This document shows positions 476 to 62,495 of a stretch of 64,000 nt of DNA, piece after piece. The notes under the pieces were generated by a model. The model had not been told where the DNA came from, ran no database searches, and saw only the letters and a program-made list of their open reading frames with translations. The stretch covers positions 5,159 to 69,158 of the forward strand of contig NZ_JAEMNU010000134.1 of assembly GCF_016461825.1 (NCBI RefSeq), written 5' to 3'. A program made the position numbers and the translations under genes. Source of the stretch: Rugamonas violacea. GTDB taxonomy: Bacteria; Pseudomonadota; Gammaproteobacteria; Burkholderiales; Burkholderiaceae_D. Position 1 is the stretch's first letter, and each line of letters opens with the position of its first letter.

Positions 476-617
476 GGGCGGCGCCGTCGGCCGCCGGTTG
501 GTGTTGGCTGTTTTGCCGTACTGGTTTTGTATGCGTATTTAGTTGTGCCTTCGTATCCGGCGCCGGTGCCTGTTCCGACGCTCCTGTCCACCTGTCTTAC
601 AGTTAAAGGAGTTTGCG

Positions 618-1298: not shown

Positions 1299-1345
1299 CT
1301 TGACAACATACACAGGACGCCGCGGCGTCCGCGAGGAGAATTGAG

Positions 1346-2902: not shown

Positions 2903-2976
2903 GCCGGCCGGCATGGCGCTACCACACAGGGCGCGGCCGTGGCCGCGCCTGATATTCAACCTTGGGGAGAACTGAC

Positions 2977-3459
2977 GTGGATGTAATTATCTTGGATATG
3001 CCTGGTATCGGCGGCGAGTGCCAGTTGAAGGATTACGTGAGCAAGATCGAATGCCTGTCCTTCAGCCACGCGGTGGCGATGCAGATGACCAGCGACGTGA
3101 GCAACAAGGAGCGCACCTCGGGCAAGCCGAACGTGCAGGACTTCACGCTGTCGAAGTACCTCGACGTTTCCTCGCCGGTGCTGAACCAGGCGTGCTGCGA
3201 AGGCCGCAAGATCGGCGAATGCAAGGTGACGGTGGGGCGCAACGAGGGCGGCGCGGTGATGCCGATGATCGTCTTCACGCTCAAGGAGGTGCTGATTTCC
3301 AGCGTCAGCGCGGCATCCTCGGGCGGCGACAAGCCGGCCGAAACGCTGACCCTGAACTTCACCGCGATCCAGTGGGACTACACGGCGCAAAACACCGATT
3401 CCACCAAGCAGGGCAACGCCCCCGGCAAGTGGGACATGAAGACCAACACCGCGGCCTAA
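2977..3459 (+). CDS. hcp: T6SS tube protein Hcp (160 aa, GTG start)
   Basis: Hcp forms hexameric rings that stack into the inner tube and is itself secreted. I chose the GTG at 2977 because GGGGAGA (2964-2970) lies 6 nt upstream and the resulting N-terminus, MDVIILDMPGIGGECQLKDY, fits Hcp; an upstream TTG at 2962 would overlap the ribosome site. Typical features are the early 'I.G(E/S)' turn, the central VSKIECLSFSHAV strand region and a C-terminal TLNFTAIQWDYTAQ beta segment. It follows tssC by 74 bp and precedes tssE by 3 bp. A second, divergent Hcp is at 32156-32650. Confidence 0.95.
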   Translation: MDVIILDMPGIGGECQLKDYVSKIECLSFSHAVAMQMTSDVSNKERTSGKPNVQDFTLSKYLDVSSPVLNQACCEGRKIGECKVTVGRNEGGAVMPMIVFTLKEVLISSVSAASSGGDKPAETLTLNFTAIQWDYTAQNTDSTKQGNAPGKWDMKTNTAA

Positions 3460-3462
3460 GGC

Positions 3463-3942
3463 ATGGCCGATCTGGACCTGTTGCAGGGCGCCCGCGCGCC
3501 CCTGTTCGAGCGCTTCGGCGGCGACGCCGCCGAAGCCGGTTTCCTGCCGTGGCGGCCGGGCCGGCGCGACGGCCTGGAGCTGGCGCTGTCGGCGCTGGAA
3601 CGCTCCATCGGCGCCGAGCTGGCGCGTCTGCTCAACACCCGCTGCGCCGCCTCGATGGCCCAGCTGGCCGAGCGCGAACGCACCGTGCTCGATTACGGCC
3701 TGCCGGATTATTCGGCCTATTACACCGGCAGCCTGGACGACCGGCAGCGCTTGACGGCGCTGGTGCGCTCGACCATCGTCGCCTTCGAGCCGCGTCTGCG
3801 CGATGTCGACGTCGAGCTGGCCTTGCCCGGCCACAGCCGCCAGGCGCTGGACGTGACGGTGCGCGCCGGGGTGATGCTGGAGGGCCGGCTCGAACCGGTG
3901 GCCTTCCAGGTCGCCGCCCTGGCCGAGAAAGGGGCGGCATGA
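3463..3942 (+). CDS. tssE: T6SS baseplate protein TssE (gp25-like)
   Basis: TssE is a small baseplate component related to phage T4 gp25 and helps initiate sheath polymerisation. The product is 159 aa and contains the gp25-like features: an N-terminal LFERFGG, a central region with LLNTRC, the TVLDYGLPDYS motif, and a C-terminal stretch with RLRDVDVELA. The start ATG 3463 lies 3 bp after hcp. Its TGA (3940-3942) overlaps the ATG of tssF, indicating translational coupling. Confidence 0.93.
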   Translation: MADLDLLQGARAPLFERFGGDAAEAGFLPWRPGRRDGLELALSALERSIGAELARLLNTRCAASMAQLAERERTVLDYGLPDYSAYYTGSLDDRQRLTALVRSTIVAFEPRLRDVDVELALPGHSRQALDVTVRAGVMLEGRLEPVAFQVAALAEKGAA

Positions 3943-5855
3943 TGCGCAGCGGCGGCGACGAAATGCTGGACTACTATCAGCGCGAGCTGGACTACCTGCG
4001 CCACGCCGGCGCCGAATTCGCGCGGCGCCATCCGCAGGCGGCGGCGCGGCTGGAACTGGGTGGCGCCGAGTCGCCCGACCCGCATGTGGAACGGCTGCTG
4101 GAGGCCTTCGCCTTTTTGACCGGCCGGGTGCGGCGCGAACTCGACAGCGAATTCCCCGAGATCGCCAGCGCGCTGCTGGAGGCGCTGCTGCCGAACGTGA
4201 CGGCGCCGCTGCCGTCGATGACCATCGTGCAGCTGGCGCCGGACCACAAGCAGGGCCTGGCCGCCGCCGGCCGCACCATCGAGGCGGGCACGCCGCTGCA
4301 CGCGGCGGCGCGGCGCGCCGAGGCCGGCGGCGAGGAGATCAGTTGCCAGTTCCGCACCTGTTATCCGCTGACGGTATGGCCGCTGCAGGTCGACTACGCC
4401 GGACTGGAGGCGCCGCATCTGCACCGCGGCCTGGCCGAGCGGCCGGAAGTGGCCAGCGTGCTGCGCCTGCGGCTGCGCTGCGGCGCCGGCGCCAGCTTCG
4501 GCGCGGGCGAGGGCGCCATCGCGCCGGACAGCCTGCGCTTCCACCTGCATGGCGATTGGGACCGCGCCGGGCCGCTGTACGAACTGCTGTTGTGCCAGGT
4601 CGCCGAACTGCTGCTGGTGGCGCCGGACGGCGACTGCGCCGACGCCATGGGCGGCGCCGGCCAAACGGCGATGCGGGCGGGCTGGCGCGAGGTCGGCTAC
4701 GCCGCCGACGAGGCGGTGCTGCCGGCCGCCGGCCAGGCCCACCCGGCCTACCGCCTGCTGCAAGAGTTCTTCGCCTTCCCGCGCAAGTTCCTCTTTTTCG
4801 AGGCGCATAATCTGGCCGCGCGGCTGCATGCGCTGAGCGCGCCGGCCGGCGGCATCGGCGACAGCGTCGACCTGCTGTTCCTGCTGAACGGCCAGGCGCC
4901 GTCCGGCCTGCGCGTCGGCGCCGGCGATTTCCTGCTCGGCTGCACGCCGGCCATCAACCTGTTCCCACGCACCAGCGAAACGCTGCGGCTGGACCAGCGC
5001 AGCGTCGAATACCGCCTCAGTCCCGACGCGCGGCGCGAGGCCAGCACCGAAATCCACAGCATCCTCTCGGTCGACGCCAGCTATGCCGACGGCCAGCCGG
5101 CCATGGCGCTGGCGCCTTACTACGGCTTCGGCCTGGCCCGCCCCGGCGAGGCGCCGCTCGACCACCACACGGCTTTATGGATGGCGCGCCGGGTGCCGGC
5201 CGCCGCGCCCGGCATGGGCGGCACCGAAATCCAGCTGTCCTTCGCCGAACTGGATCACCACCCGAGCCTGCCGCACGCCCCTCTGGTGTCCGCCCGCACG
5301 CTGTGCACCAACCGCGAACTGGCCGCCACGATCCGCCCCGATCCGCCCGGCGGCGCCACCTTCCTGGCGGCGCCGGCGGCCGGCGTGCTGCCGGTGCGCT
5401 GCCTGTACCAGCCCAGCCGCCAGCAAAGTCCGCCGCTCGACGGCGGCCAGCTGTGGCGGCTGGTCTCGCTGCTCCACCTGAACCAACTGACGTTGGAGCA
5501 GCTGTCGGCCGAGCCGGAGGCGGGCAGTCTGGCCACGCTGCGCCAGTTGCTCGAACTGTGCGCCAGCGTCGGCGCGCCCGGCGGCGCACGACATATCCGC
5601 GCGCTCAGGCGGGTGCAGTGCCGCCCGGTGGTGCGGCCGGTGCGCGGCGGGCCGGCGCCGGGCTTCCGCCGCGGCTTCGAGATCACCCTGGATCTGGCCG
5701 ACGGCAATTACGGCGACGGCACGCCGCTGATGCTGGCCGCCGTGCTGCAACGCTTCTTCTGCCTGTACACCCCGATCAATTCCTTCGCCTGCGTCAACGC
5801 GACCCACGGCGAAGAGAAAGTCAAAGCATGGCCCCCCGCGACCGCCGCCTGTTGA
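3939..5855 (+). CDS. tssF: T6SS baseplate protein TssF (VasA/ImpG)
   Basis: TssF is the large wedge subunit of the T6SS baseplate and pairs with TssG. The start at ATG 3939 (or the adjacent ATG 3942) overlaps the tssE stop. The N-terminus MLDYYQRELDYLRHAGAEFA is diagnostic, followed by the FAFLTGRV and EFPEIASALLEALLPN segments of the family. The length of 638 aa is normal. The last ~28 nt overlap the start of tssG, again indicating coupling. Confidence 0.95.
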   Translation: MMRSGGDEMLDYYQRELDYLRHAGAEFARRHPQAAARLELGGAESPDPHVERLLEAFAFLTGRVRRELDSEFPEIASALLEALLPNVTAPLPSMTIVQLAPDHKQGLAAAGRTIEAGTPLHAAARRAEAGGEEISCQFRTCYPLTVWPLQVDYAGLEAPHLHRGLAERPEVASVLRLRLRCGAGASFGAGEGAIAPDSLRFHLHGDWDRAGPLYELLLCQVAELLLVAPDGDCADAMGGAGQTAMRAGWREVGYAADEAVLPAAGQAHPAYRLLQEFFAFPRKFLFFEAHNLAARLHALSAPAGGIGDSVDLLFLLNGQAPSGLRVGAGDFLLGCTPAINLFPRTSETLRLDQRSVEYRLSPDARREASTEIHSILSVDASYADGQPAMALAPYYGFGLARPGEAPLDHHTALWMARRVPAAAPGMGGTEIQLSFAELDHHPSLPHAPLVSARTLCTNRELAATIRPDPPGGATFLAAPAAGVLPVRCLYQPSRQQSPPLDGGQLWRLVSLLHLNQLTLEQLSAEPEAGSLATLRQLLELCASVGAPGGARHIRALRRVQCRPVVRPVRGGPAPGFRRGFEITLDLADGNYGDGTPLMLAAVLQRFFCLYTPINSFACVNATHGEEKVKAWPPATAAC

Positions 5856-7096
5856 GCGGACCGGCGGCGCAGCTGCTGCGCCGGCCGGCCGACTTCGACT
5901 TCTTCCAGGCCGTGCGCCTGCTGGAGGAGGCGCGCCCGGAAACGGTTTCGCTGGGCACCGGCAGCGAGCCGCGACGCGAGGCGGTGGCCCTGCGCTCGGC
6001 CATCGGCTTCGAGTTCCCGCTGGCCGATCTGATGCAGGCGCACGGCCCGGACGCCTACGAGCGCACGGTGCTGGAGGTGGCCTTCATGGGGTTGGCCGGC
6101 GCCGACGGGCCGCTGCCGGCGCCCTACACGGAGCTGGTGCAGCAGTGCGCCCGCGCCGACGGCGGCGTGGCCGGCATCGATCCGCCGCCGCGCTACGGCC
6201 CGGACGACGACGCCCGCGACTTCCTCGACATCTTCAACCACCGTCTGTTGTCCTTCTTCTACCGGGCGCGCAAAAAGCACCGGTTGGCGCTGGGCGCCTC
6301 GGGCGAGGCGCCGGTCGAGCGCATGTTGTACCGTCTGATCGGCTTCGGCGAGGGCCTGACCCTGCCGTGGTTGCGCCGGCCCGCCGCGCTTGGCGTCGGC
6401 GTCGGCGTCGGCGCCGGCCAGGGCGCCGCGCCGGCGGCGGTGGCGCCGGCCGCGCCGGTGGCCAGCCGCATGCTGCTGCGCTATGCCGGCCTGCTGGCCT
6501 GCCAGAGCCGCTCGATGGCCGGCCTGCTGGCCATGCTGGCCGACGCCTTCGCCGTGCCGGTCGAGGGGCAGGAGCATCGCGGCCGCTGGCTCGACATCGA
6601 GCCGCGCTTCCAGAGCGCGCTGGGGCCGCATCATGGCCGCAATTGCGCGCTCGGCGTCGACATGGTGCTCGGCGCGCGCGCCTGGGAGCCGGACGGCGCC
6701 ATCGGCCTGCAGCTCGGCCCGATGGACCTGGAGCACTTTCGTTCCTTCCTGCCGGGTGGCGCGGCGCACGACGTGCTGACCTTCCTGGTGCGCTTTTATC
6801 TGCGCCAGGACCTGGATGTCCAGATCACGCTGCTGCTGACGGCCAGCGACGCCGAACTGGATCGCGCCGCACAACTGAACAGCGGCCAGTTGGGCTGGAC
6901 CACCTGGTTGCGCCAACAGCGCGGCGCCAGGCAGGCCGTGGCGAGCGGGCCGCCGGCGCCGCGGCCATCCGCTGCGCCGACAGCATCGGCAACAGCGGCA
7001 ACAGCGGCGGCAACGGCGGCGGCAGCGCTGGCGCCGCCGCAGCACCGCACCAGCTTCGCCTTGCCGCGCTGGGCCGCCGGGCGGGAGGCGCCATGA
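5828..7096 (+). CDS. tssG: T6SS baseplate protein TssG (VasB/ImpH)
   Basis: TssG is the second wedge protein of the T6SS baseplate. It starts at ATG 5828, inside the end of tssF. The family signature is the N-terminal ADFDFFQAVRLLE, followed by a middle region with DFLDIFNHRLLSFFYRA, typical of TssG. The protein is 422 aa, longer than many homologues. The excess is an Ala-rich insertion near residues 195-215 and a low-complexity Ala/Thr tail after about residue 370. Its TGA overlaps the vgrG ATG. Confidence 0.93.
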   Translation: MAPRDRRLLSGPAAQLLRRPADFDFFQAVRLLEEARPETVSLGTGSEPRREAVALRSAIGFEFPLADLMQAHGPDAYERTVLEVAFMGLAGADGPLPAPYTELVQQCARADGGVAGIDPPPRYGPDDDARDFLDIFNHRLLSFFYRARKKHRLALGASGEAPVERMLYRLIGFGEGLTLPWLRRPAALGVGVGVGAGQGAAPAAVAPAAPVASRMLLRYAGLLACQSRSMAGLLAMLADAFAVPVEGQEHRGRWLDIEPRFQSALGPHHGRNCALGVDMVLGARAWEPDGAIGLQLGPMDLEHFRSFLPGGAAHDVLTFLVRFYLRQDLDVQITLLLTASDAELDRAAQLNSGQLGWTTWLRQQRGARQAVASGPPAPRPSAAPTASATAATAAATAAAALAPPQHRTSFALPRWAAGREAP

Positions 7097-9045
7097 GCGG
7101 CGACGTCCTGGCCCTGGGTTTCAGCGGCGCCGGCGGCAAGCTGACGCTGGTCGGCCTGCACGGCGAGGAGGCCATGGGCGAGCTCTTCGTCTATCATCTG
7201 GAACTGTTTTCCGCCGACGCGGCGATCGATTTCTCCAGCGTGGTCGGGCAAAGCGCCAGCGCCAGCGTCACGCTGGCCGACGGCAAAAAACGCTACTTCA
7301 GCGGCGTGATCAGCCGCTTTGTGCAGGCCGGCGGCCTGCCGGGCGGCGCCAGCTACCGCGCCGAACTGCGGCCCTGGCTGTGGTGGTTGCTGCTGGAAGT
7401 GGACGCCCGCATCTTCCAGCAAAAGAGCGCGCCGGAGATCATCACCGCCCTGTTCGACGAATTCGGTTTCAGCGACTACCGCAACAGCCTGAGTGGCAGC
7501 TACAGCACGCGCGACTACTGCGTGCAGTACAACGAAAGCGCCTTCCACTTCGTCTCGCGGCTGATGGAAGAAGAGGGGATTTTTTACTACTTCGAACACG
7601 CCGCCGGCAGCCACACGCTGGTGTTGTTCGACGGCGGCGGGGAATATCCCGCCTGCACCGGCCTGACCAGCGCCCACTATCAGGAAACCGGCATCAGCCG
7701 CGACGCCTTTGACCTGGTGTACCGCTGCGAAGCCGAACAGTGCGCCGTGCCGGCCAAGTTCGCCAGCGGCGATTTCAGTTTCCAGACGCCGGACGCGCCG
7801 CTCAGCGCCGCCGCCGAAGGCAAGGGCGGCCGCATGCGCGTCTACGAATACCCCGGCGGCTATGCCGTGGCGGCCGACGGCGGCACCTTGGCGACGCGGC
7901 GCATGCAGTCGCTGGCGCAGGGCCGCCAGGCCATTCGCGGCGACAGCAGCTGCCGCGCCTTCACCGCCGGCCACCGTTTTGCGCTGGCCGGCCACTACCG
8001 CGCCGATCTGAACGCCGGCTATGTGCTGCAGCGGGTGCTGCACAATCTCAGCCACGACAGCTACAGCAACAGCTTCGACGCTTTTCCGCAGAGCCTGCCG
8101 TTCCGTTCGCCGTTGCGCACCTCGCGTGCGCGCATCCTCGGCACGCAGACGGCGACCGTGGTCGGCAAGGCCGGCGAGGAGATCTGGACCGACAGTTTCG
8201 GCCGCATCAAGGTGCAGTTCCACTGGGACCAGCGCGGCAAGAACGATGAGAACAGCTCCTGCTGGATCCGCGTGGCGCAAAGCTGGGCCGGCAAGGGCTG
8301 GGGCAATTTCTTCCTGCCGCGCATAGGCCAGGAGGTCGTCGTCAGCTTCCTCGACGGCGACCCGGACCGGCCGCTGGTCACCGGCGCCGTCTACAACGCC
8401 ACGCAGACGGTGCCGGAGCCGCTGCCGGCCAATCAGACGCGCAGCACCATGCGCAGCCGTTCCAGCAAGGACGGCAAGGCCGGCAACGAGCTGCGCTTCG
8501 AGGACAAGCTCGACGCCGAGGAACTGTATCTGCACGCGCAGAAGGACATGAACACGGTGGTCGAAAACTGCCGCAGCACGCGGGTGGTCGAGGGCAAGGA
8601 CAGCCTGGCGGTGGAAAAGGGCGAGCGCAGCGTCAACGTCAAGGGCGACGAGGAGCACGTCAACCAAGCCAATTTCACGCACAAGGTGACGGGCAACTTC
8701 ACGCATCAGGTGACCGGCAACTACGAGTTGAAAGTGGATGGAAATTTAACCATCACGGTTGCAGGTAACATCAGCATCAAGACCGACGGCAGCTTCAGCT
8801 GCGAGGCCGGCACTTCGCTCAGCAACAAGTCCGGCACCAGCTTGGCCAACAATGCCGGCACCACCTTCGCCAACAAGGCCGGCACCAGCATGAACAACGA
8901 GGCCGGCACCTCGCTGGAGAACAAGGCCGGCACGACGATGGTCAACGAGGCCGGCATTTCGCTGACCAACAAGGGTTCCGCTTCGCAGACGGTCGATGGT
9001 GGCGGCATGCTGACCTTGAAGGGAGGGATCGTCAAGATCAACTGA
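7093..9045 (+). CDS. vgrG: T6SS spike protein VgrG (TssI)
   Basis: VgrG trimerises to form the puncturing tip on the Hcp tube and carries effectors. The 650-aa product has the N-terminal gp27-like region (YCVQYNESAFHFVSRLMEEEG), the gp5 OB-like region (GKAGEEIWTDSFGRIKVQFH; WAGKGWGNFFLPRIGQEVVV) and a long beta-helical tail. Residues ~570-640 contain near-tandem 8-residue units of the type AGTSLxNK (AGTTFANK, AGTSMNNE, AGTSLENK, AGTTMVNE). No enzymatic C-terminal extension was recognised, so cargo is probably loaded through adjacent proteins. Start ATG 7093 overlaps the tssG stop. Confidence 0.96.
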   Translation: MSGDVLALGFSGAGGKLTLVGLHGEEAMGELFVYHLELFSADAAIDFSSVVGQSASASVTLADGKKRYFSGVISRFVQAGGLPGGASYRAELRPWLWWLLLEVDARIFQQKSAPEIITALFDEFGFSDYRNSLSGSYSTRDYCVQYNESAFHFVSRLMEEEGIFYYFEHAAGSHTLVLFDGGGEYPACTGLTSAHYQETGISRDAFDLVYRCEAEQCAVPAKFASGDFSFQTPDAPLSAAAEGKGGRMRVYEYPGGYAVAADGGTLATRRMQSLAQGRQAIRGDSSCRAFTAGHRFALAGHYRADLNAGYVLQRVLHNLSHDSYSNSFDAFPQSLPFRSPLRTSRARILGTQTATVVGKAGEEIWTDSFGRIKVQFHWDQRGKNDENSSCWIRVAQSWAGKGWGNFFLPRIGQEVVVSFLDGDPDRPLVTGAVYNATQTVPEPLPANQTRSTMRSRSSKDGKAGNELRFEDKLDAEELYLHAQKDMNTVVENCRSTRVVEGKDSLAVEKGERSVNVKGDEEHVNQANFTHKVTGNFTHQVTGNYELKVDGNLTITVAGNISIKTDGSFSCEAGTSLSNKSGTSLANNAGTTFANKAGTSMNNEAGTSLENKAGTTMVNEAGISLTNKGSASQTVDGGGMLTLKGGIVKIN

Positions 9046-9046
9046 G

Positions 9047-9721
9047 ATGAGCAGCGTGCCCCCGCCATCGCCGCCGGCCGGTATCGTGCCGCCGAGCCCC
9101 GTCGCCAGTCCGCTCAACGGTCAGGTGGAAAGCCATACGCCGCAAGGCGCGCTGGCCAGCCGCGCCCAGTTCGTCGGCGGTTTGTTGGACGGTTTGCTGG
9201 TGCTGTACGACGAGATGCAGCGGCCGAGCCAGCGCGCGCTGTACCGGCGCGGCCTGCAGCACGGCAGGACGCAGTTGTTCGGCGACGGCCACCTGCTGGC
9301 CGAGGTCCAATACTGCGACGGCCTGCGCGAGGGCCTGAGCTGCACCTACGACGACGCGGAGCAGATCAGCAGCAAGGTGCAGTACGTCGCCGGCCGCCAG
9401 CACGGCGCCGCCAGCTACTACTATCCCGACGGCGCGCTGGCGCGCAGCGCGCAATTCTTCAACGGCCTGGCGCACGGCGAGCAGCGCGATTACAGCCCGG
9501 CCGGCAAGCTGCTGATGGTGACGCCTTACGTCAACGGCAAGCGCCACGGCGCGCAAACGCGTTTCCATCTGAACGGCGCGCGCCAGGAGGTGATTCATTT
9601 CAAGGACGGCAAGCCGGTGGGCGAGCCGGTTCTGTATAACGAACAGGGCGAGCCGATCGGCGCCGCGTCGGCCGGCGAGCCGCCGCGCCGATCGCTGCTG
9701 GCGCGTCTGATCGAAGGCTAG
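9047..9721 (+). CDS. MORN-repeat-variant protein, probable T6SS accessory or immunity
   Basis: The 224-aa protein consists of repeated units of the MORN-variant type (for example YVAGRQHGAASYYYPDGAL, FFNGLAHGEQRDYSPAGKL, YVNGKRHGAQTRFHLNGAR), each ~20-22 residues. Such proteins are usually annotated as MORN-repeat variants or YwqK-type antitoxin-like proteins and often sit beside VgrG. No signal peptide is visible; the N-terminus is Pro-rich. The ATG is 1 bp after the vgrG stop, so it is cotranslated with vgrG. I infer an adaptor or immunity role for the DUF4157 effector two genes downstream; the sequence does not prove it. Confidence 0.75.
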   Translation: MSSVPPPSPPAGIVPPSPVASPLNGQVESHTPQGALASRAQFVGGLLDGLLVLYDEMQRPSQRALYRRGLQHGRTQLFGDGHLLAEVQYCDGLREGLSCTYDDAEQISSKVQYVAGRQHGAASYYYPDGALARSAQFFNGLAHGEQRDYSPAGKLLMVTPYVNGKRHGAQTRFHLNGARQEVIHFKDGKPVGEPVLYNEQGEPIGAASAGEPPRRSLLARLIEG

Positions 9722-9730
9722 GAGCAAAAA

Positions 9731-9973
9731 ATGGAATATCGATTTTCATTCAACAAACGCATGCTGGTCTGGCTGGGCGTGGCGCAGTTCCTGCTGTTGG
9801 CGCTGTGCTTCGCGATAGGGCTGGTGTCGGGACAGTATCGCAGCCACCAGGCGGCAGCGGCGCTGCCGTCCGCGCCGGCGACCACGTCGCCACATTCGCC
9901 GGCGACACCGCCGCAGGCCCAGGCGTCGGGCAAGATCAAGAGCGGCGGCATCGCGCTCAACGAGGGAGAGTGA
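9731..9973 (+). CDS. Small single-pass membrane protein of the vgrG operon
   Basis: This 80-aa protein has one N-terminal membrane segment (about residues 12-32, MLVWLGVAQFLLLALCFAIG) followed by a Pro/Ala-rich ~45-residue tail. TAGGAG just upstream gives a good ribosome site. It is separated by 9 bp from the MORN gene and by 1 bp from the DUF4157 gene, so the four genes vgrG-MORN-TM-effector form a single translation unit. I do not recognise the family. An inner-membrane immunity or anchoring role is possible from context alone. Confidence 0.7.
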   Translation: MEYRFSFNKRMLVWLGVAQFLLLALCFAIGLVSGQYRSHQAAAALPSAPATTSPHSPATPPQAQASGKIKSGGIALNEGE

Positions 9974-9974
9974 C

Positions 9975-10982
9975 ATGGCCAATTCAAGGGGTGTACTGAT
10001 TCAAGCGCATTTTGTACACGGCATCGTCGGCGCGCCGTCCTCCGGCGCGCGGTCCGGCGCCGTGCAGCGCCGCGCCGACGCCAACATCATACCGCTCGCC
10101 GCCGGCCAACTGCAGCTGGCCGGCAGCGTCGGCCGCGCCCTGCCGGACTCGGTGCAGCGCAAGATGGAGGCCTTCTTCAAGGCCGATTTTTCCGACGTGC
10201 GCATCTACCAGGGACCGCAGGCCCAGTCGATCGGCGCGCACGCCTTCACGATGGGATCGAGCATTTACTTCGCGCCGGGCCAGTATTCACCGGACACGGC
10301 GCGCGGCCAGCAACTGCTGGGCCATGAGCTGACCCACGTGCTGCAGCAGCGCGCCGGCCGGGTGCGCGCGCCGCAGGGCGGCGGCACGGTGGTGGTCAAC
10401 GATCACGGGCTGGAGGCCGAAGCGGACCGCATGGGCAGCCGCGCGGCCGCGTTTCGTCTGCCGCCGGTGCAGGCCAAACTGGCGCCGCCCGGCATGCCGC
10501 AGCGCGCCCAGCAGGCGGTGGCCTTGCAGGCGCGCCAGGCCGGCCACAAGTTGGTGATCGGCGCGTACATGCACCAGGGCGCGGCCGGCGCCGGCGCCCC
10601 GCCCGACTTGGCCGGCCACGCCTTCGTTTCGCTGCAGGGGCCGGCCGGCGGCCGTCAGACCTGGGGCTTCTCGCCGGAGAACTACAGCCGCTACGACCCG
10701 CGCAAGGATCTGGGCAAGCTGCGCGCCGGCGTGCCCGGCGTGGTGCACCGCGACGACCAGGCCTTCTCCAAGCCGGGCGTGAAGACGCGCAGCTATGCGC
10801 TCAGCCCGGCCCAGGCCAAGGCGGCGATGGCCAAGATCGACGAATACCGCACGCGCCACTACAGCTTCAGCGCGCAGTCGCGCCAGTGCACCACCTTCGC
10901 CAGCGACGTGCTGCGCGCCGCCAACGTGGCCGGCGCGCCGGCCAGCCGCATGGCGCCGGCGGATTTCTACCGCAAGATTTGA
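9975..10982 (+). CDS. DUF4157 (HExxH) protein with permuted papain-like C-terminal domain; probable secreted effector
   Basis: The 335-aa protein has two visible parts. Residues ~50-160 match DUF4157 (the eCIS-core type): LPDSVQRKMEAFFKADFSDVRIY, then HELTH at 117-121. Residues ~190-335 look like a permuted NlpC/P60- or YiiX-type papain fold: the conserved His comes first (GHAFVSL, H215), then WGFSPE, and the candidate nucleophile comes last (C305 in SRQCTTFASDVLRAAN). The linker contains QAKLAP (166-171). DUF4157 proteins are typical cargo of contractile injection systems; here the gene closes a vgrG operon, so T6SS delivery is inferred. A predicted amidase or lipid hydrolase activity rests only on the motif order. 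Confidence 0.8.
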   Translation: MANSRGVLIQAHFVHGIVGAPSSGARSGAVQRRADANIIPLAAGQLQLAGSVGRALPDSVQRKMEAFFKADFSDVRIYQGPQAQSIGAHAFTMGSSIYFAPGQYSPDTARGQQLLGHELTHVLQQRAGRVRAPQGGGTVVVNDHGLEAEADRMGSRAAAFRLPPVQAKLAPPGMPQRAQQAVALQARQAGHKLVIGAYMHQGAAGAGAPPDLAGHAFVSLQGPAGGRQTWGFSPENYSRYDPRKDLGKLRAGVPGVVHRDDQAFSKPGVKTRSYALSPAQAKAAMAKIDEYRTRHYSFSAQSRQCTTFASDVLRAANVAGAPASRMAPADFYRKI

Positions 10983-54035: not shown

Positions 54036-54854
54036 TCAAAGCGACGTCTCAAAAAAACATAGCTGCAGGGCAGAACATGCCATGCCGGCAAGCGCTTCTT
54101 GCCCCGCCAAATCGCAAGGACCGTCGCGATCAAATTGCTCGCACCAGGACATGCAACCGGCCGCAACATCGATCACGCGCAGAGAAACACGCGCCCCGGC
54201 GGCGGCGGCGCGCACGCTTCCCTCAAGCACATGGGTGATTTTCCGGGCCTTCCCGGTCAATGCCTGGCTCTGCGCGAAGTGGTTCGGGACGATGCGATGG
54301 GAAAAAGCGTGGAACAGGCGGAATGCGAGTTCCTCGTTCAATCCTTGCGTGAATGCGCTCGCGTCCCTCCCAGGATTGCAATTCACCAAGGGCACGACAG
54401 ACAGCAGCATTGCCTCATCTAGCGCTTTGCCCCCCGGCGTCACGCGGGCGATGATGGGGCGATAGCTCCCAAGGGGCACGGAAAAGCGGTATGCCGAGGC
54501 CGCGCCGGCCTGTGCGTAGTAGTGGGCCAGTCTTTCGCGCAGCCGCCCCATCTGCACGCGCACGATCGGGTCCTCACAGGTGCTGTAGCTCCTCGCGTCG
54601 CGGTCAAACACTTCCATCCCCACGGCGTACTCACATAGGCTTGCGGTTTCGCCCATCAGCTCCGCTTCGATCAGGAAGGTGATCAGCCGGGACATTCTTT
54701 GGGCTTTGGAAAAATTTATACTCGCCAACAATTGTTGCAGCGAAAGGCGTATCGCGCAGGCCTCGCCGTCGTCGATATCCCGGTCCGCCGCGTTGGCGCG
54801 CGCCACTGCGGCGTAGCCTTGAGACGGTAGTGAGAACAATGAACAGTGTTGCAT
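54036..54854 (-). CDS. Regulator-like protein: conserved N-terminal domain plus TolB-like domain
   Basis: The 272-aa protein has two parts. Residues ~35-140 (RMSRLITFLIEAELMGETA; CEYAVGMEVFDRDA; CEDPIVRVQMGRLRERLAHY; YRFSVPLGSYRP) are a domain that commonly precedes TolB-like, cyclase or TPR modules in acidobacterial and proteobacterial regulators. Residues ~150-270 resemble the TolB/FlgO N-terminal domain (LNEELAFRLFHAFSHRIVPN; HVLEGSVRAAAAGARVSLRV). No membrane segment is visible. It diverges from the giant STAND gene across 162 bp that contains a dyad, suggesting linked control. Confidence 0.7.
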   Translation of the reverse strand: MQHCSLFSLPSQGYAAVARANAADRDIDDGEACAIRLSLQQLLASINFSKAQRMSRLITFLIEAELMGETASLCEYAVGMEVFDRDARSYSTCEDPIVRVQMGRLRERLAHYYAQAGAASAYRFSVPLGSYRPIIARVTPGGKALDEAMLLSVVPLVNCNPGRDASAFTQGLNEELAFRLFHAFSHRIVPNHFAQSQALTGKARKITHVLEGSVRAAAAGARVSLRVIDVAAGCMSWCEQFDRDGPCDLAGQEALAGMACSALQLCFFETSL

Positions 54855-54898
54855 TTTTCACTCTCTGACATGAATGCAAAAAAAGAAAGATTAGTAAG

Positions 54899-54912
54899 GA
54901 TGCATTTGCATC
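54899..54912. promoter_or_regulatory. Dyad GATGCATTTGCATC in the divergent regulator promoter region
   Basis: GATGCA and TGCATC are perfectly complementary around TT, and a second GATGC follows 1 bp later. It lies between the TolB-like and STAND genes, ~45 bp from the former's start. It could be an operator for either protein; no factor can be assigned. Confidence 0.45.
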
Positions 54913-55016
54913 GATGCTTGGGTTAGACTCTACAAGGCGCCGGCGAAACTGACCTTCCGATAGTCTTCCTTTTTCCAAGCATATGATTTCATTCAGTATT
55001 TTCTGCTGTTCTGCAT

Positions 55017-58000
55017 ATGCAAACCGAACCTGAACGGCGCCCGGAAAGGTTGAAGCCGGCGGCTTTTTTGTTTGGCGATTGGCGCGTCGCCCAGGCCAGC
55101 AACTCCATTCAGCAAGGTGAGGTCAGCCGCCAGCTGGAACCCAAGGCGATGGATGTCCTGGTGGCCTTGTGCAGCAACGCGGGTAATGTCCTGAGCGCGG
55201 AGGAATTGCTGGAGCGGTGCTGGGGAAGCACATTGCACGGCGACAATCAGGTGCACAAAACGATCACCCAGCTGAGAAAGTTGCTCGGCGATCGAGCCGG
55301 TACGCCGACGTATATCGAAACCATACGCAAACGCGGCTATCGCGCGATCGCTGCCGTGACGCGCGACGAACAGACAACTGCCTGGCTGGCAGAATCCCCG
55401 TTTCGCGGCCTGGAAGCGTTTGAAGCCCGCCACGCGGCCGTATTTTTCGGCAGGGAGGCGGACAGCCGCCGCCTGCTCGACGCCGTCCACGCCCAGGCCG
55501 GATCGGCTCATGGCCTGGTGATCGTGCTTGGACCTAGCGGGTGCGGCAAGACGTCGCTGATTCAGGCGTCGTTGGTGCCGGCCCTGGAGCGGGGCGCGGA
55601 CGACCGCGCCGGCCTGTCGTTCACGTCACTCGATCTCGGTTTGCCCGCGCCCGGGCGGCTGTTTGTCGAACTGGGCAGCGCGATGCTGGACTGGCAGGAC
55701 GGAGAAGAACCGGTGTTCCACGGCGCCAGCGCCGATTCACTGGGAAAACTGCTGGCCAGCGCGCCCGCATCCCTGACCGCGCGCTTGGCCACGCGCTGGC
55801 CGGCGCCGGCACGGCGACTGGGTTTGTTTCTCGACCGCTTCGAAGCGCTCTTCGCCCTCCCCAGCGTCAGCGAGGACGAACGGAGCGCCATGGTCCACGC
55901 GATCGACGTCCTCGCCGCCAGTCCTCAAGTGATCCTCGTACTTGCTTGCCGCAATGATTTCTACCCCCGCATCGCGGAGTATGAGGCACTCATGCGTGGC
56001 AAGCCGAACGGCGCCCACGTGGACATCACACGCCCGGACAGCAGCGAGCTGGCGCGCATCATCCGCTTGCCAGCTCAGGCCGCCCGGCTCAGGTTCGGCG
56101 TCGACCAGGCAAGCGGCGCGCGCCTCGACGACGTCCTGTGTCAGAGCGTGAGCGGCAGCCCTGACGCGCTTCCCTTGCTGCAATACACTTTGCAGGAACT
56201 GTATCGTCAGCGCAGCGCGGACGGGGAACTGGCGTACGCGGTCTTCACCCACCTCGGCGGTGTCGACGGGGCGATCGGACGGCGTGCAGAAGAAGTGATT
56301 GCCGCGCTCGACCCGGCTCAGCGAGCGGCGCTGCCGCGCGTGCTGGCGCTGATCGTGACGGTCTCCGCCACCACCGACGCCGTCACCAGCTGCAGCGCGC
56401 GCTGGGCCGATTTGCACGACGAGGACCAGCGCAAGCTGGTCAGCGCCCTGGTGGAGGCACGGCTGCTGGTCAGCGAACTGGTCGGATCGGTGGCGGGCTT
56501 CCGGGTCGCCCACGAGGCCCTGTTGCGGCGTTGGCCGCGTGCGACGGAATGGATCGCTTCACATCGCAACAGTTTGTTGATCCGTGCGCGCACCGCCGCA
56601 CTGGCCGAACGCTGGATCGGCGCCAATCGTCCCGTGGACCTCTTGCTGCCGCCGGGGCAACAGCTGGACGAGGTGCGCGCCATGCTCGTCCGCGGCGATC
56701 TGGCGCTGGGGGAGCGCGGCCTGGCCCTGGTGCAGGCCTCGCATCAACGGGCGCGTTCGCGCGCGCGCATCCGCATGACGGCCATGGCACTGATTTTGAC
56801 CCTGGCCACGCTGTCCGCCGTGCTCGGCGTTATGGCGGGCGCGGCGCGCAATGCCGCCGAACAGCGCCGCGTGGATGCGGAAGGGCTGGTGCAATTCATG
56901 CTGGGCGAGCTGGTGGAAAAACTGCGTCCGCTGGGCCGGCTGGACCTGCTGGACGGCGTCAGCACGAGGGCGCTCGCTCATCTGACGCGCGACCACGGCG
57001 GCGACACCGCCCCGTCGGGCGTCCTGCAGCGCGCCAAGGCCTTGCAGGTGATCGGCGAGGTGCGCCTGGCGCGCGGCGACCTGCGCGCCGCCATTAGCGC
57101 GTTCAGCGCGGCCGGCCGCCTGCTTGAGCCGGCGCTGAGCGCCCGCCCCGGCGACGCCGAGTTGCTCAAGCTGCTGGGGACGAACGCCTATTGGCTCGGG
57201 AAAATCGAGCTCGACAGAAGCGCCTTGCCGGAAGCGCGCAAGTACTTTCTGTTGTACAGCGTCTATGCCGACCGCCTGCACGCGCTCGATCCGGACAACG
57301 TGGCGACCTGGATCGAGCAATCCTATGCGTACAACAATCTCGGAACGTTGGCGTACCGCACCGGCGATCTCGATGCGGCGAACCGGGCGTTCACCACGTC
57401 GCTCGACTTGAAGACACGGGCCCAGGCGCGCCGGCCGGAGGACCGTGAGCTGTCGGCCGATATTGCGGACAGCCTGTCCTGGCTGGGCGAACTGTGCCTG
57501 ACGGACGGGCGCCTTAAAGACGCGCTCGCCTACTACGAGCGCGAACTGAGCATCATCACCGCCATGCATGCGGCCCGCCCTGCGGACAGCAAACTGGCCG
57601 AGCAGCGCGCCGACGCCTTGCAGCATCGCGCGCTGCTGCTGGCGGCGTTCGGCGACGATCAATCCGCATTGCACGACTACGCGCTCGCCGACCAGCTCCT
57701 GGCCCGCAACTTGCTGCTGGAACCGGGCAACAGTGAATGGCAGCGCGCACTGATCTATGTGCAACTGGAACAGCTGCGCATCCGCACCCACAGCACCCTT
57801 GGCGAGGCCGAACTGGCCGCGCTGAGCGGCGTGGAACAGCGCAGCGCCGCGCTGGCGCAACGCGATCCGGAGAACGATGTATGGACCAAGCTGGTGGCAA
57901 CGGCGCGCACGCGTTATGCCCTGGCATTGCTCGAGCGTTCACGCCACGATGCCGCCGGCGACCTGCTCGCCCTTGCACGGACCAGTCTGACTGCGCAGTT

Positions 58001-58298
58001 GTTGCGCGACCCCGAGGATCAAAGCAGCACGGTCACCCTGGCGATCAACCACCTTGCGCAAGCCCGGCTGCTGGCGGCGCGCGGTGAGCATGACGGCGAA
58101 CGCGCCAGCTGCCTTGCCGCGCGCGACCGATTGCGATCGGCTGCGGAGCGCGGCAGCAGTTTCAAGGTGCTTGACCCCTGGGTACGCGCCCTCTCGTGCC
58201 TGGGCCATTCCGACCTTGCCGCTGCATCCATGGCCCGGCTATCGGCCATGGGCTATCGCGACGCGGCTTACCGGCAGTTCCTTTTACACCAACGATGA
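55017..58298 (+). CDS. wHTH-nSTAND-TM-TPR signalling protein (1093 aa)
   Basis: Visible domain order: OmpR/CadC-type winged HTH (residues ~15-113; QLEPKAMDVLVALCSNAGNV, KTITQLRKLLGD, YIETIRKRGYRAIA), a STAND NTPase (FRGLEAFEARHAAVFFGREA; Walker A GPSGCGKTS at 172-180; Walker B-like LGLFLDRFEALF at ~265-280; VAHEALLRRWPRATEWI near 510), one membrane segment (~585-607) and ~480 residues of TPR-like helices. The HTH is therefore cytoplasmic and the TPR part lies across the membrane. The sequence suggests a membrane-bound sensor that controls nearby genes. The likely targets are the two genes immediately downstream. Confidence 0.85.
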   Translation: MQTEPERRPERLKPAAFLFGDWRVAQASNSIQQGEVSRQLEPKAMDVLVALCSNAGNVLSAEELLERCWGSTLHGDNQVHKTITQLRKLLGDRAGTPTYIETIRKRGYRAIAAVTRDEQTTAWLAESPFRGLEAFEARHAAVFFGREADSRRLLDAVHAQAGSAHGLVIVLGPSGCGKTSLIQASLVPALERGADDRAGLSFTSLDLGLPAPGRLFVELGSAMLDWQDGEEPVFHGASADSLGKLLASAPASLTARLATRWPAPARRLGLFLDRFEALFALPSVSEDERSAMVHAIDVLAASPQVILVLACRNDFYPRIAEYEALMRGKPNGAHVDITRPDSSELARIIRLPAQAARLRFGVDQASGARLDDVLCQSVSGSPDALPLLQYTLQELYRQRSADGELAYAVFTHLGGVDGAIGRRAEEVIAALDPAQRAALPRVLALIVTVSATTDAVTSCSARWADLHDEDQRKLVSALVEARLLVSELVGSVAGFRVAHEALLRRWPRATEWIASHRNSLLIRARTAALAERWIGANRPVDLLLPPGQQLDEVRAMLVRGDLALGERGLALVQASHQRARSRARIRMTAMALILTLATLSAVLGVMAGAARNAAEQRRVDAEGLVQFMLGELVEKLRPLGRLDLLDGVSTRALAHLTRDHGGDTAPSGVLQRAKALQVIGEVRLARGDLRAAISAFSAAGRLLEPALSARPGDAELLKLLGTNAYWLGKIELDRSALPEARKYFLLYSVYADRLHALDPDNVATWIEQSYAYNNLGTLAYRTGDLDAANRAFTTSLDLKTRAQARRPEDRELSADIADSLSWLGELCLTDGRLKDALAYYERELSIITAMHAARPADSKLAEQRADALQHRALLLAAFGDDQSALHDYALADQLLARNLLLEPGNSEWQRALIYVQLEQLRIRTHSTLGEAELAALSGVEQRSAALAQRDPENDVWTKLVATARTRYALALLERSRHDAAGDLLALARTSLTAQLLRDPEDQSSTVTLAINHLAQARLLAARGEHDGERASCLAARDRLRSAAERGSSFKVLDPWVRALSCLGHSDLAAASMARLSAMGYRDAAYRQFLLHQR

Positions 58299-58308
58299 AA
58301 GCAAAACC

Positions 58309-58701
58309 ATGTCTCCTTCCCGCACTCCCTCGATTGACGTCCCGGTCTTTCTGAGCGTTGAAGTCAACGTCACGAAATGCGCCGGTCCGGTCTGCAATGC
58401 AGGCGACTACAACGTGACGTACAACGGACACCCGACTCTGATGATCGAGGTCCCCATGCGTGACAGCGTGATCCGCTTTGGCCTGGACGCCGCGACACCG
58501 GAGGACGTCCTTTTTGTCGGCATGACGACTTCGCGGAAACGCTCCGATCCGCAGCTGAGCAGCTACTCCATTTCGGTCGACCGGCGCGTCCTGGTCTGCA
58601 CCGATGTCGATTCAAAGCCGGGACAGTTCGACGTAACACTGCAATGGATCATTGGCAAGCCCCTGGCGCACGATCCGCAGGTGCACAACAAACCGGGCTA
58701 A
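58309..58701 (+). CDS. Conserved small protein downstream of the STAND gene
   Basis: The 130-aa protein has no signal peptide and predicted beta-rich content (IDVPVFLSVEVNVTKCAGPV; NVTYNGHPTLMIEVPMRDSV; YSISVDRRVLVCTDVD; FDVTLQWIIGK). The family is not recognised. Its start lies 10 bp after the STAND stop, so it is almost certainly cotranscribed. Its small, folded, Cys-containing character would fit a ligand, partner or cargo of the STAND protein, but this is inference from context only. Confidence 0.65.
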   Translation: MSPSRTPSIDVPVFLSVEVNVTKCAGPVCNAGDYNVTYNGHPTLMIEVPMRDSVIRFGLDAATPEDVLFVGMTTSRKRSDPQLSSYSISVDRRVLVCTDVDSKPGQFDVTLQWIIGKPLAHDPQVHNKPG

Positions 58702-58910
58702 GCGCCACCAAGGTCGCCTTCTCCGCCTGTGGCAGGGCGGGCCGCTGTGGACCGAGCGTATCGCCGAAGTCAGATATCGCTGTAACCGTAATGATACTGA
58801 CGCTGCGATGCGGTCTTGCCTACAGTGGCTCCATGGTCACCCACATGACGTGCGCTTCGCCATCATGCCGAGAGGGTGGCCTCGACCGCAATGCCCTTCC
58901 GGAGAAAGCC

Positions 58911-60806
58911 ATGCCCGTCCAATCACCGAACGCCAATGCCAGTTCACCGCTTCCCCTGAACCTGGTGCGGCAATTCGCGCCCACCATCGTGTTCCACCCC
59001 GACGAAATTTTCTTGCCGTGTTCGATAGAGCATATTCTGGCGAACGCCACGCTGCAAGCCGATCCCGCCGTGCAGATTCCCAACCAATTCATCGCCGGGG
59101 ACAATGGCAGCAATCAGCCCATTCCCGCTTACGCTCAGATGAACGGCGTGCTCTACCTTGCGTATCAGGACCTCAACGACAACATCTGGGTCAGCTCCTC
59201 GCCCGACGGCATCAATAACTGGTCGCAGCCGATCAACAGCTGCGGCGGCATCAACCCCTCGCTGGTGGCCCACAGCGACGGCAAACTCTGGATGGCTTAC
59301 ACCTACAACGAAAATATCTGCGTGGCTTACTCGGCCGATGGCGTCAGCTGGACAAACATGGGCCAGATCCCCAACCAGGCCACCGTGTATCCCATCCTGA
59401 CCTCGTTCATGGGCAGCTTGTGGATCGTCTATACCGGCAATGACAGCTCCCAGCTGTACATCACCACGTCCAGCGATGGGGCCCAGAGCTGGAATTGCTG
59501 GGAAGTCCCGGGCAACACCTCGGTTCCGGCCGTAACGGTGTACAACAACGCGCTCTGGCTGGTCTACAGCAGTTCTGACGGCTCCGAGCTGTACTGCGCT
59601 TCCTCGCCGGATGGCGTAAAGTGGACGACCAATCCCATCCCCAAGCAGACCAGCTCGATTCCGGCACTGGCGACCTTCAATGGCGCCTTGTGGATTGTCT
59701 ATTCGGATTCGGACAGTTCCGACATGTTCGTCTCCACCTCGACCGATGGTGTGAGCTGGACCGTGAACCCACTGGGGAACCAGTTCACCTCGGTCCCCGC
59801 GCTCGCCGTGCTGGGGCAGACCCTGTGCATGGTGTATCCCGACTCGACGCCGAGCTCCTCGGGGGGCGGCCATATCCGCCAGCTGTGGGCCAGTTGCTCG
59901 CAAGATGGTTGGGACTGGCAGCCAAGTGACATCGACAACCCAACCCAGCAGGACATGGCCAATCACTACGCTGGCCAGTACCACCTGAATATCAACGAGG
60001 CAGCCTTTACCGGCGAAGGCTTGAACGCGCCGATGTATTACGCAGTGCAGAATTTTTCGGACTACACCGAAATCACCTACCTGCTCTTCTTCGGCTTCAA
60101 CGGCTGCCAGACCGTCCACATTCCGATCTTCGGCAACGACTATGAATGCATCCTGTACGATTATGCGCGCCACCAGGGCGACCTGGAACGGGTGACGATC
60201 CGGATCTCGAACGACCCGGGCAATCCACAGGTGCTGGACGTGTGTACCGAATCGCATGGCGACGCCAGCCACTGGACGCCCGATCAGGTGAGTTTCACCC
60301 CCGGCACGTCCAGCGCCGTCATTCATTCCTCGCTGAACGCCCACGGCACCTTCATCGAAGGGCAGCAGGGTAGCTGGATCAGCAAGCAAAACGCCGTCGT
60401 GGCCGATTTTGGCGACGCCATCGGCGAAGGCGGGGTCTGGACGCCGAGCGAATATCGGCTGGTTGGTCTGGACAGCCAGTCGAACCCGGTCAACGAGCAG
60501 GTATGGGCCAAGTTCTGCGGCCGGATCGGCGCGCACCTGGACAATAGCCTGACCGCCGGGACGGACTATCAACGCAATGACTTGTCCGGCGTACTGTGGG
60601 TCTACATCCAGGGCTGCAACGCCATCGCCGGTGCCTTCGGTCTGATGCCGGCGGACGCGGTCTCCGGCGATGGCCCGAAAGGACTGGGGGAGCGTCCGTA
60701 CATCCGGCCGGCCAACCAGGCGGCGGCCAGCACGGCCGTCGCCAGCGCGGCGCGGGCCCAGGCAGTGCCGGCCAAGGCGCCGTCGGGCGACCTGGTACAA
60801 GCCTGA
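58911..60806 (+). CDS. Vps62-domain protein with inserted six-bladed beta-propeller repeats
   Basis: The 631-aa protein begins LVRQFAPTIVFHPDEIFLP, the start of a Vps62 (DUF946-like) domain, and resumes it at residues ~380-560 (YYAVQNFSDYTEITYLLFFG; RHQGDLERVTIRISND; VIHSSLNAHGTFIEGQQGSW). Between the two halves are about six ~40-residue sialidase/propeller-type repeats (e.g. NNALWLVYSSSDGSELYCAS, NGALWIVYSDSDSSDMFVST). No signal peptide is visible. GGAGAAAG supports ATG 58911. Function is unknown; proximity to the STAND regulator suggests a shared system. Confidence 0.75.
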   Translation: MPVQSPNANASSPLPLNLVRQFAPTIVFHPDEIFLPCSIEHILANATLQADPAVQIPNQFIAGDNGSNQPIPAYAQMNGVLYLAYQDLNDNIWVSSSPDGINNWSQPINSCGGINPSLVAHSDGKLWMAYTYNENICVAYSADGVSWTNMGQIPNQATVYPILTSFMGSLWIVYTGNDSSQLYITTSSDGAQSWNCWEVPGNTSVPAVTVYNNALWLVYSSSDGSELYCASSPDGVKWTTNPIPKQTSSIPALATFNGALWIVYSDSDSSDMFVSTSTDGVSWTVNPLGNQFTSVPALAVLGQTLCMVYPDSTPSSSGGGHIRQLWASCSQDGWDWQPSDIDNPTQQDMANHYAGQYHLNINEAAFTGEGLNAPMYYAVQNFSDYTEITYLLFFGFNGCQTVHIPIFGNDYECILYDYARHQGDLERVTIRISNDPGNPQVLDVCTESHGDASHWTPDQVSFTPGTSSAVIHSSLNAHGTFIEGQQGSWISKQNAVVADFGDAIGEGGVWTPSEYRLVGLDSQSNPVNEQVWAKFCGRIGAHLDNSLTAGTDYQRNDLSGVLWVYIQGCNAIAGAFGLMPADAVSGDGPKGLGERPYIRPANQAAASTAVASAARAQAVPAKAPSGDLVQA

Positions 60807-61059: not shown

Positions 61060-62495
61060 ATGCAGACACATACAGAATCGGCGGATGTGGGCGGTGGCGG
61101 CCGGGAGTTGTCGGCGGGGTTATTGTCGGACCAGGACGAGATCGGCGAACTGCGCGTGCTGTTCGACGGCCAGGCCGGCAACCCCTTGCAGCCGGCCGAG
61201 ACGCCACGGGGCAAGGCCCGCGCCGCCGTCGTGTCGACGGACTATTACGGCGCGTTCAGCGTCGAAAAATTCGCTGCGGCAAGCAGTCTCAGCTATACGC
61301 ACGAGGACGCCGGCGGTTGGCTCAACTACGTGCAACAATTCCAGGCGGCGAACTTCTGGTACCAGGACGCCGGCGTGGCGCCCTGGGCCTACTACGAGCA
61401 GTACGACAACTGGCAGGATACATACGGCATGGACGCGGTGATGGCGGTCTACCATTCCGGCCACGGCGCGATGGACGGCAACGGCGTGTTCTACGCCGCC
61501 ATGGGCGCCTGTTCAACTGGGGCGCGGTGAGCCGCGACTACTGGCACTGGCGTTGGTACTACGCCGCCTCGCTGGCGCTGGCGTCGCGGGCGCGCAACCA
61601 CAAGGTGCCGGAACGCATCGCCACGGCGCAGCTGGGCATCGAACAGGTTGGCGGCAAGCTGGTGCGCGGCATCCTGGAGCGCCTGCCGGTTGAGCTGGCG
61701 CTGCCGCAGGAGGTGGCGGCCAATCCGGCCGGCATCATCGTGCTGTCCGACGGCGGCCGGCGCATTTCGATCGATCCGCACGGCACCTACGACGCCCAGC
61801 TCAGCCAGCCCAACCTGGAGAGCGGCAACGAGCTGTTGCTGAGCGCGACGCTGCTCAAGGCCAACGACGTGGTGCGCCAGTTCGGTCTGGACCGCAACGA
61901 CATCACCTTCGACCGCGTGCTGCACAAGTATGACTGCAGCGGCAGCACCAAGGGCAGCGGCGAGATCGGCACGCCGCGCATCACCGAGACGGTGGTGCAG
62001 TTCACCCAGTTGATCGACGGCATACCCGTCATCGGGCCGGGCGAGGGCAAGGTGGCGATCACCTTCGACAACGACGCCAACGTGACGGCGGTGCTCGACA
62101 CGACGCGACGGATCGACAAGCTGATCGATGCCTTCAGCGCGCCGCGGGCGGACGACAGTTCCGCGCCGCACAGCAATGGCCGCAACGGCGCCACCGCGGG
62201 TTACCGCGGCAATGGCGGCGGCCTGGGCGCCCACCGCTCCGGCGGCATCGATCCGCAGGCGCTGCTGGCCGGCGTGTGGCAGGAGCGCATGAAGACCTGG
62301 GTGCTGGGCAATGGCATGCCGGAACGTTATTCGGTGGTGCCGGACAGCTACGAGGTAGGCTATGTGATCCGGGGCAACAGCGCGTTGTTGGTGGCGCGCG
62401 AGGAGGTCGAGGTCGACTGCGGTGGCGGCTTCGTCAAGCGTTTCGCCGTCGAGGCGCCGCTGCATCCGACGGCGCAGACGCAGGTCTACCACTAG
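61060..62495 (+). pseudogene. Frameshifted, internally deleted DUF6345-type gene
   Basis: The first frame (61060-61530, start after GAGGAGTAAGAC) encodes the N-terminal part ending HSGHGAMDGNGVFYAAMGAC, then runs into a TGA. The +1-shifted frame continues from ~61505 with LFNWGAVSRDYWHWRWYYAA to 62495. In DUF6345 proteins ~130 residues normally lie between these blocks (with the HNPIRTW-type region), so both a deletion and a frameshift at ~61505 have occurred. The gene is probably non-functional as read. Confidence 0.78.

Follow-up and report, generated by a model that had tools for sequence, protein, structure and literature searches.

Conserved pairing of a STAND gene and a DP-EP-like gene in Rugamonas violacea and other Proteobacteria: a possible receptor and its peptide precursor

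Introduction

Receptors of the RRNPP type combine a DNA-binding domain with tetratricopeptide repeats (TPRs), and the STAND regulators MalT and AfsR, which carry a helical-repeat sensor, are soluble. The protein SO1698 of Shewanella oneidensis was reportedly crystallised as a self-cleaving peptidase, the original paper being that of Osipiuk (2012, J Biol Chem 287:19452). PMC10075063 describes RRNPP pairs as adjacent genes for a receptor and a propeptide, with intracellular receptors in Firmicutes, and PMC11655445 describes trials of the self-cleaving module of SO1698 as a biotechnology tool. The present study concerns two adjacent genes, one for a STAND nucleoside triphosphatase (NTPase) protein and one for a small protein, in a 64,000-nucleotide stretch (hereafter the window) of the 6.9 Mb genome of Rugamonas violacea (contig NZ_JAEMNU010000134.1, positions 5,159 to 69,158 of the forward strand); the pair is conserved and may represent a receptor and the precursor of its peptide. 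The open-licence literature searched contained neither a report of this linkage nor a cellular role or partner of SO1698; subscription papers were outside its scope.

A conserved gene pair

Two genes form the conserved core of the locus: the STAND gene and its small downstream neighbour are kept together in several families of Proteobacteria. Searching named genomes with an alignment of the STAND proteins yielded 280 relatives, the best 80 of which were kept as named loci (L). Their hosts, bacteria of soil and water, are mostly Oxalobacteraceae and further include Dyella, Pseudoxanthomonas, Roseateles, Azospirillum, Rheinheimera, Alishewanella, Shewanella, Paraglaciecola, and Agaribacter. In 73 of these best 80 loci, the gene directly downstream encodes a small protein that carries an Asp-Pro (D-P) tail (in L132, the open reading frame (ORF) chosen by the script was wrong, and the correct D-P-tailed ORF was read separately). 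The other seven loci have altered tails (L171, L197, and L200), only a double-glycine peptide (L148, L152, and L169), or nothing recognisable (L135). The two genes overlap in 36 of the 72 tabulated gaps (by 4 bp in 27 of these) and are separated by <=50 bp in 69 of the 72; in the window, the small gene starts 10 bp past the STAND stop codon.

The reverse test gave the same picture. Among 60 genomes of the genus, all 47 matches to a profile of DP-EP proteins (PF08985/DUF1888), the family to which the small protein is related, are located directly 3' of a STAND gene on the same strand; both genes are present in 45 genomes, a listed STAND gene in 50, and a DP-EP gene alone in none. In a sample of 398 genomes of the phylum, PF08985 has seven matches in six genomes, two of them in tandem in one genome, and all seven lie behind a relative of the window's STAND gene. 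No relative turned up in a scan of the genome contigs that used only the small protein as query. The genus search scored 12 candidates per genome, and 63 places among the matches listed were counted as STAND copies (full or near-full matches only, to the exclusion of fragments and wHTH-only matches). A DP-EP protein is detected by the profile at 47 of these 63 copies; 11 of the other 16 are followed by a diverged small protein that keeps the motif DP[QE]xxN and four by short ORFs that end in PExxN and have no DP-EP fold. Because several genomes carry a genus handle (G) and also occur among the named loci, the two sets share members and cannot be summed.

The distances of the STAND NTPase and the DP-EP protein are strongly correlated (r 0.85), which would be expected if the two are inherited as a unit; the comparison used the 89 pairs left after removal of L132, L178, L181, and L201, where the tail pattern was not found, and of copies whose STAND C-termini were identical. 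The linkage connects the DP-EP family with a single putative receptor gene in several proteobacterial families. In gammaproteobacteria, the unit has an additional companion: all 24 gammaproteobacterial loci, and none of the 56 others, have a same-strand gene for a PAS-GGDEF diguanylate cyclase at a downstream distance of 0.5-3.9 kb (domain assignment checked on one copy), and likewise downstream in five of the six PF08985-bearing genomes of the phylum sample.

A divergent DP-EP relative downstream of the STAND gene

The small protein of the window has no Pfam match of its own; its relationship to the DP-EP family, a distant one, emerges from its relatives and its fold. PF08985 is matched by 7 of 13 relatives (best E 1.6e-6), and a profile of these 13 proteins matches the structures of SO1698 (E 1.8e-8), to which the window copy is approximately 22% identical. 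The predicted model (pLDDT 88.3) has the fold of SO1698 (TM-score 0.71); all 12 Foldseek matches at E <= 0.001 are SO1698 entries (TM-scores of 0.62-0.72, normalised by query length), and the next-best folds are those of PixA inclusion-body proteins.

The SO1698 entries in the PDB are titled aspartic peptidase and include the mutants D116A and P117A. The deposited chains comprise 119 residues in the wild type and in Y26F, K98A, P115A, and Q118A, and 128 residues in D37A, S114A, D116A, and P117A. Since chain residue 119 corresponds to Asp116 by alignment, the cut should be located between Asp116 and Pro117, and the chain lengths suggest that D37 and S114 are needed for self-cleavage. Asp-Pro is present at the cut position in all 57 aligned DP-EP-like proteins, including that of the window, whereas the position of D37 is occupied by D in 9 and that of S114 by S in 32 of the 57. 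A second, tandem DP-EP protein at locus L210 (G307:C1:282376-282714) has a signal-peptide-like N-terminus and looks exported.

A C-terminal peptide shared with double-glycine precursors

The tail motif of the DP-EP-like proteins is D-P-[QE]-x-x-N, whose D, P, and N are invariant among the 57 aligned proteins. The common form of the peptide that begins with the proline is P[QE][VI]xN[DE]P, the form in the window is PQVHNKPG, and in several DP-EP proteins (at L104, L106, L172, and others) the motif occurs at least twice. In the model of the small protein, the tail forms a short strand (residues 125-127).

At some loci, the same peptide follows a double-glycine leader in small ORFs without a DP-EP fold, which are located beside genes for HlyD and a C39-peptidase ABC exporter. 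Seven such ORFs are present in G029, four in G034, two in G043, two at L151, and seven in G496, where the genes are arranged in the order STAND, DP-EP, HlyD, C39-ABC, peptides. The exporter genes of L144 were identified as HlyD and Peptidase_C39/ABC by Pfam, those of other loci by similarity or motif. For the leader comparison and the within-locus test below, the double-glycine peptides were picked by a motif in which G at -2 and P at 1 are fixed, positions 2, 3, and 5 restricted, and position 7 free. Their leaders carry L at -12 in 17 of 18 cases, E at -8 in 17 of 18, and G at -2 in all 18 (the last by selection), in agreement with the canonical rule for double-glycine leaders. Matches to a profile of these precursors were found in 9 of 74 genus genomes, each of which has a match beside a STAND gene; three of the nine (G492, G498, and G499) encode the variant PE[LI]GHD, and no DP-EP protein was found there.

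Both forms are more frequent than in shuffled tails. In a set of 18,400 ORFs (25-250 aa, with duplicates) from the collected loci, the tail motif was counted 86 times (3 in shuffled tails) and the double-glycine form 20 times (6 in shuffled tails). At the six loci that have both types of precursor, including L155, whose double-glycine copy has an inner stop, peptide identity is higher within loci (mean 5.12 of 7) than across loci (4.34); the observed mean is reached by 8 of 720 permutations over seven positions and by 16 of 720 over eight, and in a first version of the test, based on five loci, by 5 of 120.

Two further groups of peptide-like ORFs were encountered. At L123 and L124 (G003 and G031), short ORFs with signal-peptide-like starts end in the same PEEPN tail as the ORF located directly behind the STAND gene. 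Other double-glycine peptides (GGPE[VLF]EV and GGPECEV) occur at L297, L299, and L300, with no STAND gene within the 14-16 kb fetched.

Architecture of the STAND protein

The central protein combines an OmpR/CadC-type winged helix-turn-helix (wHTH) domain, an nSTAND1 NTPase, a transmembrane segment, and a TPR domain (Table 1); its best sequence match in the PDB is the wHTH domain of CadC. Lysine 178 of the Walker A motif is invariant in two family alignments. A hydrophobic segment is present in 116 of 119 sequences of the STAND family (from genus genomes and named loci, duplicates included), and the N-terminal side of the best segment is the more positive one in 111, with ties in five. This charge bias places the TPR domain, by prediction, outside the cytoplasm; in some sequences (e.g., L101), the topology script picked the strand of the Walker A motif instead of the transmembrane segment.

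In the AlphaFold model (pLDDT 87.5), the wHTH domain and the NTPase are followed by a membrane stretch of poor model quality and an extended TPR superhelix; how the domains are arranged is uncertain (pTM 0.49). Its Foldseek matches include the STAND-TPR protein 6mfv and the TPR domains of LGN that were solved together with their partners. These matches are compatible with, but do not prove, binding of a peptide by the TPR domain of the model.

A putative peptide-sensing system and its alternatives

Direct results of the computation are the pairing of the genes, the relationships of the families, the invariance of the tail, the recurrence of the peptide in unrelated precursors, and the topology prediction. 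The peptide is kept more widely than any one precursor and adjoins a membrane regulator with an outer TPR domain, where exported peptides would be encountered, which is the basis for proposing that the module is a pair of receptor and peptide precursor and that the peptide is sensed by the STAND protein. We regard this reading as tentative, with chances that fall a little short of even. The DP-EP-like protein would display a C-terminal peptide of approximately 8-10 residues and release it by Asp-Pro cleavage, and at some loci, the same peptide would also be supplied by double-glycine-leader precursors via the C39-peptidase ABC exporter. The TPR superhelix may then sense the peptide at the outer face of the inner membrane, and binding may switch the cytoplasmic NTPase to an active oligomer, whose wHTH domain would control transcription. 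Likely targets would be the module's own operon, the diguanylate cyclase in gammaproteobacteria, and, where present, the genes of the exporter and the peptides. Release of the peptide in the strain of the window, its exit when derived from a DP-EP protein, its binding, the oligomerisation of the receptor, and the effect on transcription are inferred.

Several observations weigh against peptide sensing. The positions of D37 and S114 of SO1698 are occupied by I and A in the window copy, which makes its self-cleavage, as judged from sequence, uncertain. Most DP-EP proteins, including that of the window, have no evident signal peptide by crude hydropathy, so that an exit route for a DP-EP-derived peptide is missing. 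No double-glycine peptide of this motif was found in the window's genome, and its five C39 matches are all located on other contigs, none of them near the locus. The double-glycine copy of G017 has a stop inside the aligned stretch, and the STAND copy of G058 has no motif-bearing ORF behind it. Finally, covariation of the peptide with the TPR domain beyond that with the NTPase is weak (partial r 0.154, a value reached by none of 999 permutations).

The absence of an evident signal peptide would be accommodated if the whole DP-EP protein were a cytoplasmic co-regulator or ligand that binds the STAND protein and thereby controls the NTPase, with the tail, a short strand in the model, kept as the last beta-strand for folding or docking. 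The strong correlation of the STAND and DP-EP distances also agrees with such a partnership. Against it stand the recurrence of the motif in precursors of a different fold and the predicted outer location of the TPR domain; we consider this explanation unlikely. The order of events could also be reversed, in that a CadC-like STAND activator answers a different stimulus and drives the synthesis of a self-cleaving structural or extracellular protein. Translational coupling, as suggested by the frequent gene overlaps, and the similarity to PixA inclusion-body proteins argue for the DP-EP protein as an output, but the double-glycine copies of the peptide and the match of peptides within loci are left unexplained, and we consider this possibility improbable.

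Antiphage defence, which a preceding sequence-only reading of the locus had raised as a possibility, is highly improbable. nSTAND1 NTPases are found in predicted conflict systems, according to PMC10907252, and two phage families (PHROGs) without an assigned function match the NTPase and the wHTH domain. The comparison with antiphage STAND families that had been suggested as a check gave no firm match: the PADLOC matches, mostly to the NTPase, are weak (mad8, E 1e-7 over 60 residues; mad3, E 0.002; a TPR model, E 0.06) and do not support membership in Avs or another antiphage STAND family. Domain searches of the locus proteins found no toxic effector domain; moreover, the N-terminus is DNA-binding, many copies in the genus share their chromosomal context, and the gammaproteobacterial loci are consistently accompanied by the diguanylate cyclase, all of which weighs against defence.

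Locus layout and neighbouring genes

The locus (54036-60806) comprises four ORFs in the arrangement first described (Table 1). Their existence, the four domains of the central protein, and the small beta-rich protein shortly downstream, now modelled as a beta-sandwich, were borne out by the analysis. A sense-and-respond unit, as assumed in that reading, is supported for the STAND and small genes, but a system of all four genes is not.

Table 1. Features of the locus and their positions in the window.
Feature	Position	Strand	Basis
TolB-like regulator, divergent; partly conserved partner	54036..54854	-	Family comparison
wHTH-nSTAND1-transmembrane-TPR protein, 1093 aa; proposed receptor and transcription regulator	55017..58298	+	Domain matches, topology prediction, model, relatives
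OmpR/CadC-type winged helix, ~residues 17-116	55065..55364	+	PF00486 Trans_reg_C, E 9e-17; CadC 5ju7, E 3.8e-13
nSTAND1 NTPase, residues 128-538, Walker A GPSGCGKTS	55398..56630	+	PF20703, E 3.3e-82
Predicted single transmembrane segment, ~residues 587-608, N-terminus inside	56775..56840	+	Hydropathy and charge
TPR superhelix, ~residues 661-1085, predicted periplasmic	56997..58271	+	Pfam TPR_2, topology prediction, model, Foldseek
Small DP-EP-like beta-sandwich protein, 130 aa; proposed peptide precursor	58309..58701	+	PF08985 match in relatives, not in the window copy itself; model
C-terminal peptide PQVHNKPG behind Asp122	58675..58698	+	D122, P123, and N127 invariant in 57 relatives
Vps62 and BNR-propeller protein	58911-60806		Pfam

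The TolB-like gene diverges from the STAND gene in the window but is only partly linked to it elsewhere, adjoining the STAND gene in 15 of the 80 named loci and diverging from it in 11. The profile of its family has no solved relative (best E 0.2), and Pfam matches are weak (FlgO in 1 and Trans_reg_C in 2 of 15 members). At L105, a divergent gene (5134-6222, minus strand) encodes a protein whose N-terminal part is similar to the TolB-like protein of the window and whose different body is reminiscent of DUF1906. Yet another gene (families F17/F19) diverges from the STAND gene at L104-L108, L121-L126, L144, L148, L152, and L169; the tested copy has no Pfam match, and a resemblance of the product to TULIP/P47 proteins is seen by eye only.

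The last gene encodes a protein that matches BNR and Vps62. Its most probable start is position 58911, which is preceded by a GGAGAAAG stretch and lies approximately 210 bp past the small gene. Among the 60 genus genomes, its protein is full length only in the window copy, and five other genomes have partial matches that are located away from the STAND places. In the absence of a conserved neighbourhood, it was rejected as a member of the module and is probably a separate acquisition.

Scans for promoters and terminators around the genes found nothing above chance, and a repeat scan found just short inverted repeats, for which there is no chance estimate. Elsewhere in the window, Type VI secretion genes (VipB sheath, TssF, and a VgrG-like hub) are followed by a gene for an eCIS core domain protein at 10062-10982 (region 1-10982), and two overlapping ORFs 3' of the Vps62 gene (61060-62495), neither of which matches Pfam, resemble a single gene split by a frame change.

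Comparison with known systems

If the peptide is a signal, Gram-negative bacteria have a way of sensing peptides that relies on a membrane STAND NTPase, and the NTPase gains a defined candidate ligand. The locus may even represent an unrecognised form of Gram-negative peptide communication, in which DP-EP and double-glycine precursors converge on one peptide with an N-terminal proline and a membrane-spanning STAND receptor controls transcription directly, together with cyclic di-GMP in gammaproteobacteria. The orphan self-cleaving protein SO1698 would then gain a biological role; we consider this wider interpretation conceivable but somewhat doubtful.

SO1698 (PDB 3n55 and 3njf-3njn) shares its fold and the tail D-P-Q-x-x-N with the window protein, which differs in the lack of a direct Pfam match and of the residues at the D37 and S114 positions. 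Some relatives in the genus resemble double-glycine/C39 peptides in their leaders (G at -2, G or A at -1, together with L at -12 and E at -8) and in the adjacent HlyD and C39-ABC genes, but their mature part comprises only approximately 8-12 residues and equals the DP-EP tail.

The succession of a STAND NTPase and a helical-repeat sensor is shared with STAND regulators and STAND-TPR proteins such as 6mfv; in contrast to the soluble regulators, a transmembrane segment here parts the NTPase from the sensor. The N-terminal wHTH domain inside, the single transmembrane segment, and the sensor predicted to lie outside are features of CadC-type activators, from which the protein of the window differs by the STAND NTPase between the wHTH domain and the membrane, the TPR sensor, and the DP-EP partner.

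Nearest in logic are the RRNPP systems (PlcR-PapR, NprR-NprX, and others), which likewise consist of an adjacent gene pair and a short peptide; the pairing described here has the same layout, and the small gene would take the role of the propeptide. We do not assign the pair to RRNPP, because the putative receptor is not a cytoplasmic HTH-TPR protein without NTPase and membrane segment. Instead, an nSTAND1 NTPase and a transmembrane segment are inserted between the wHTH and TPR domains, the TPR domain is predicted to lie outside, and the hosts are Gram-negative.

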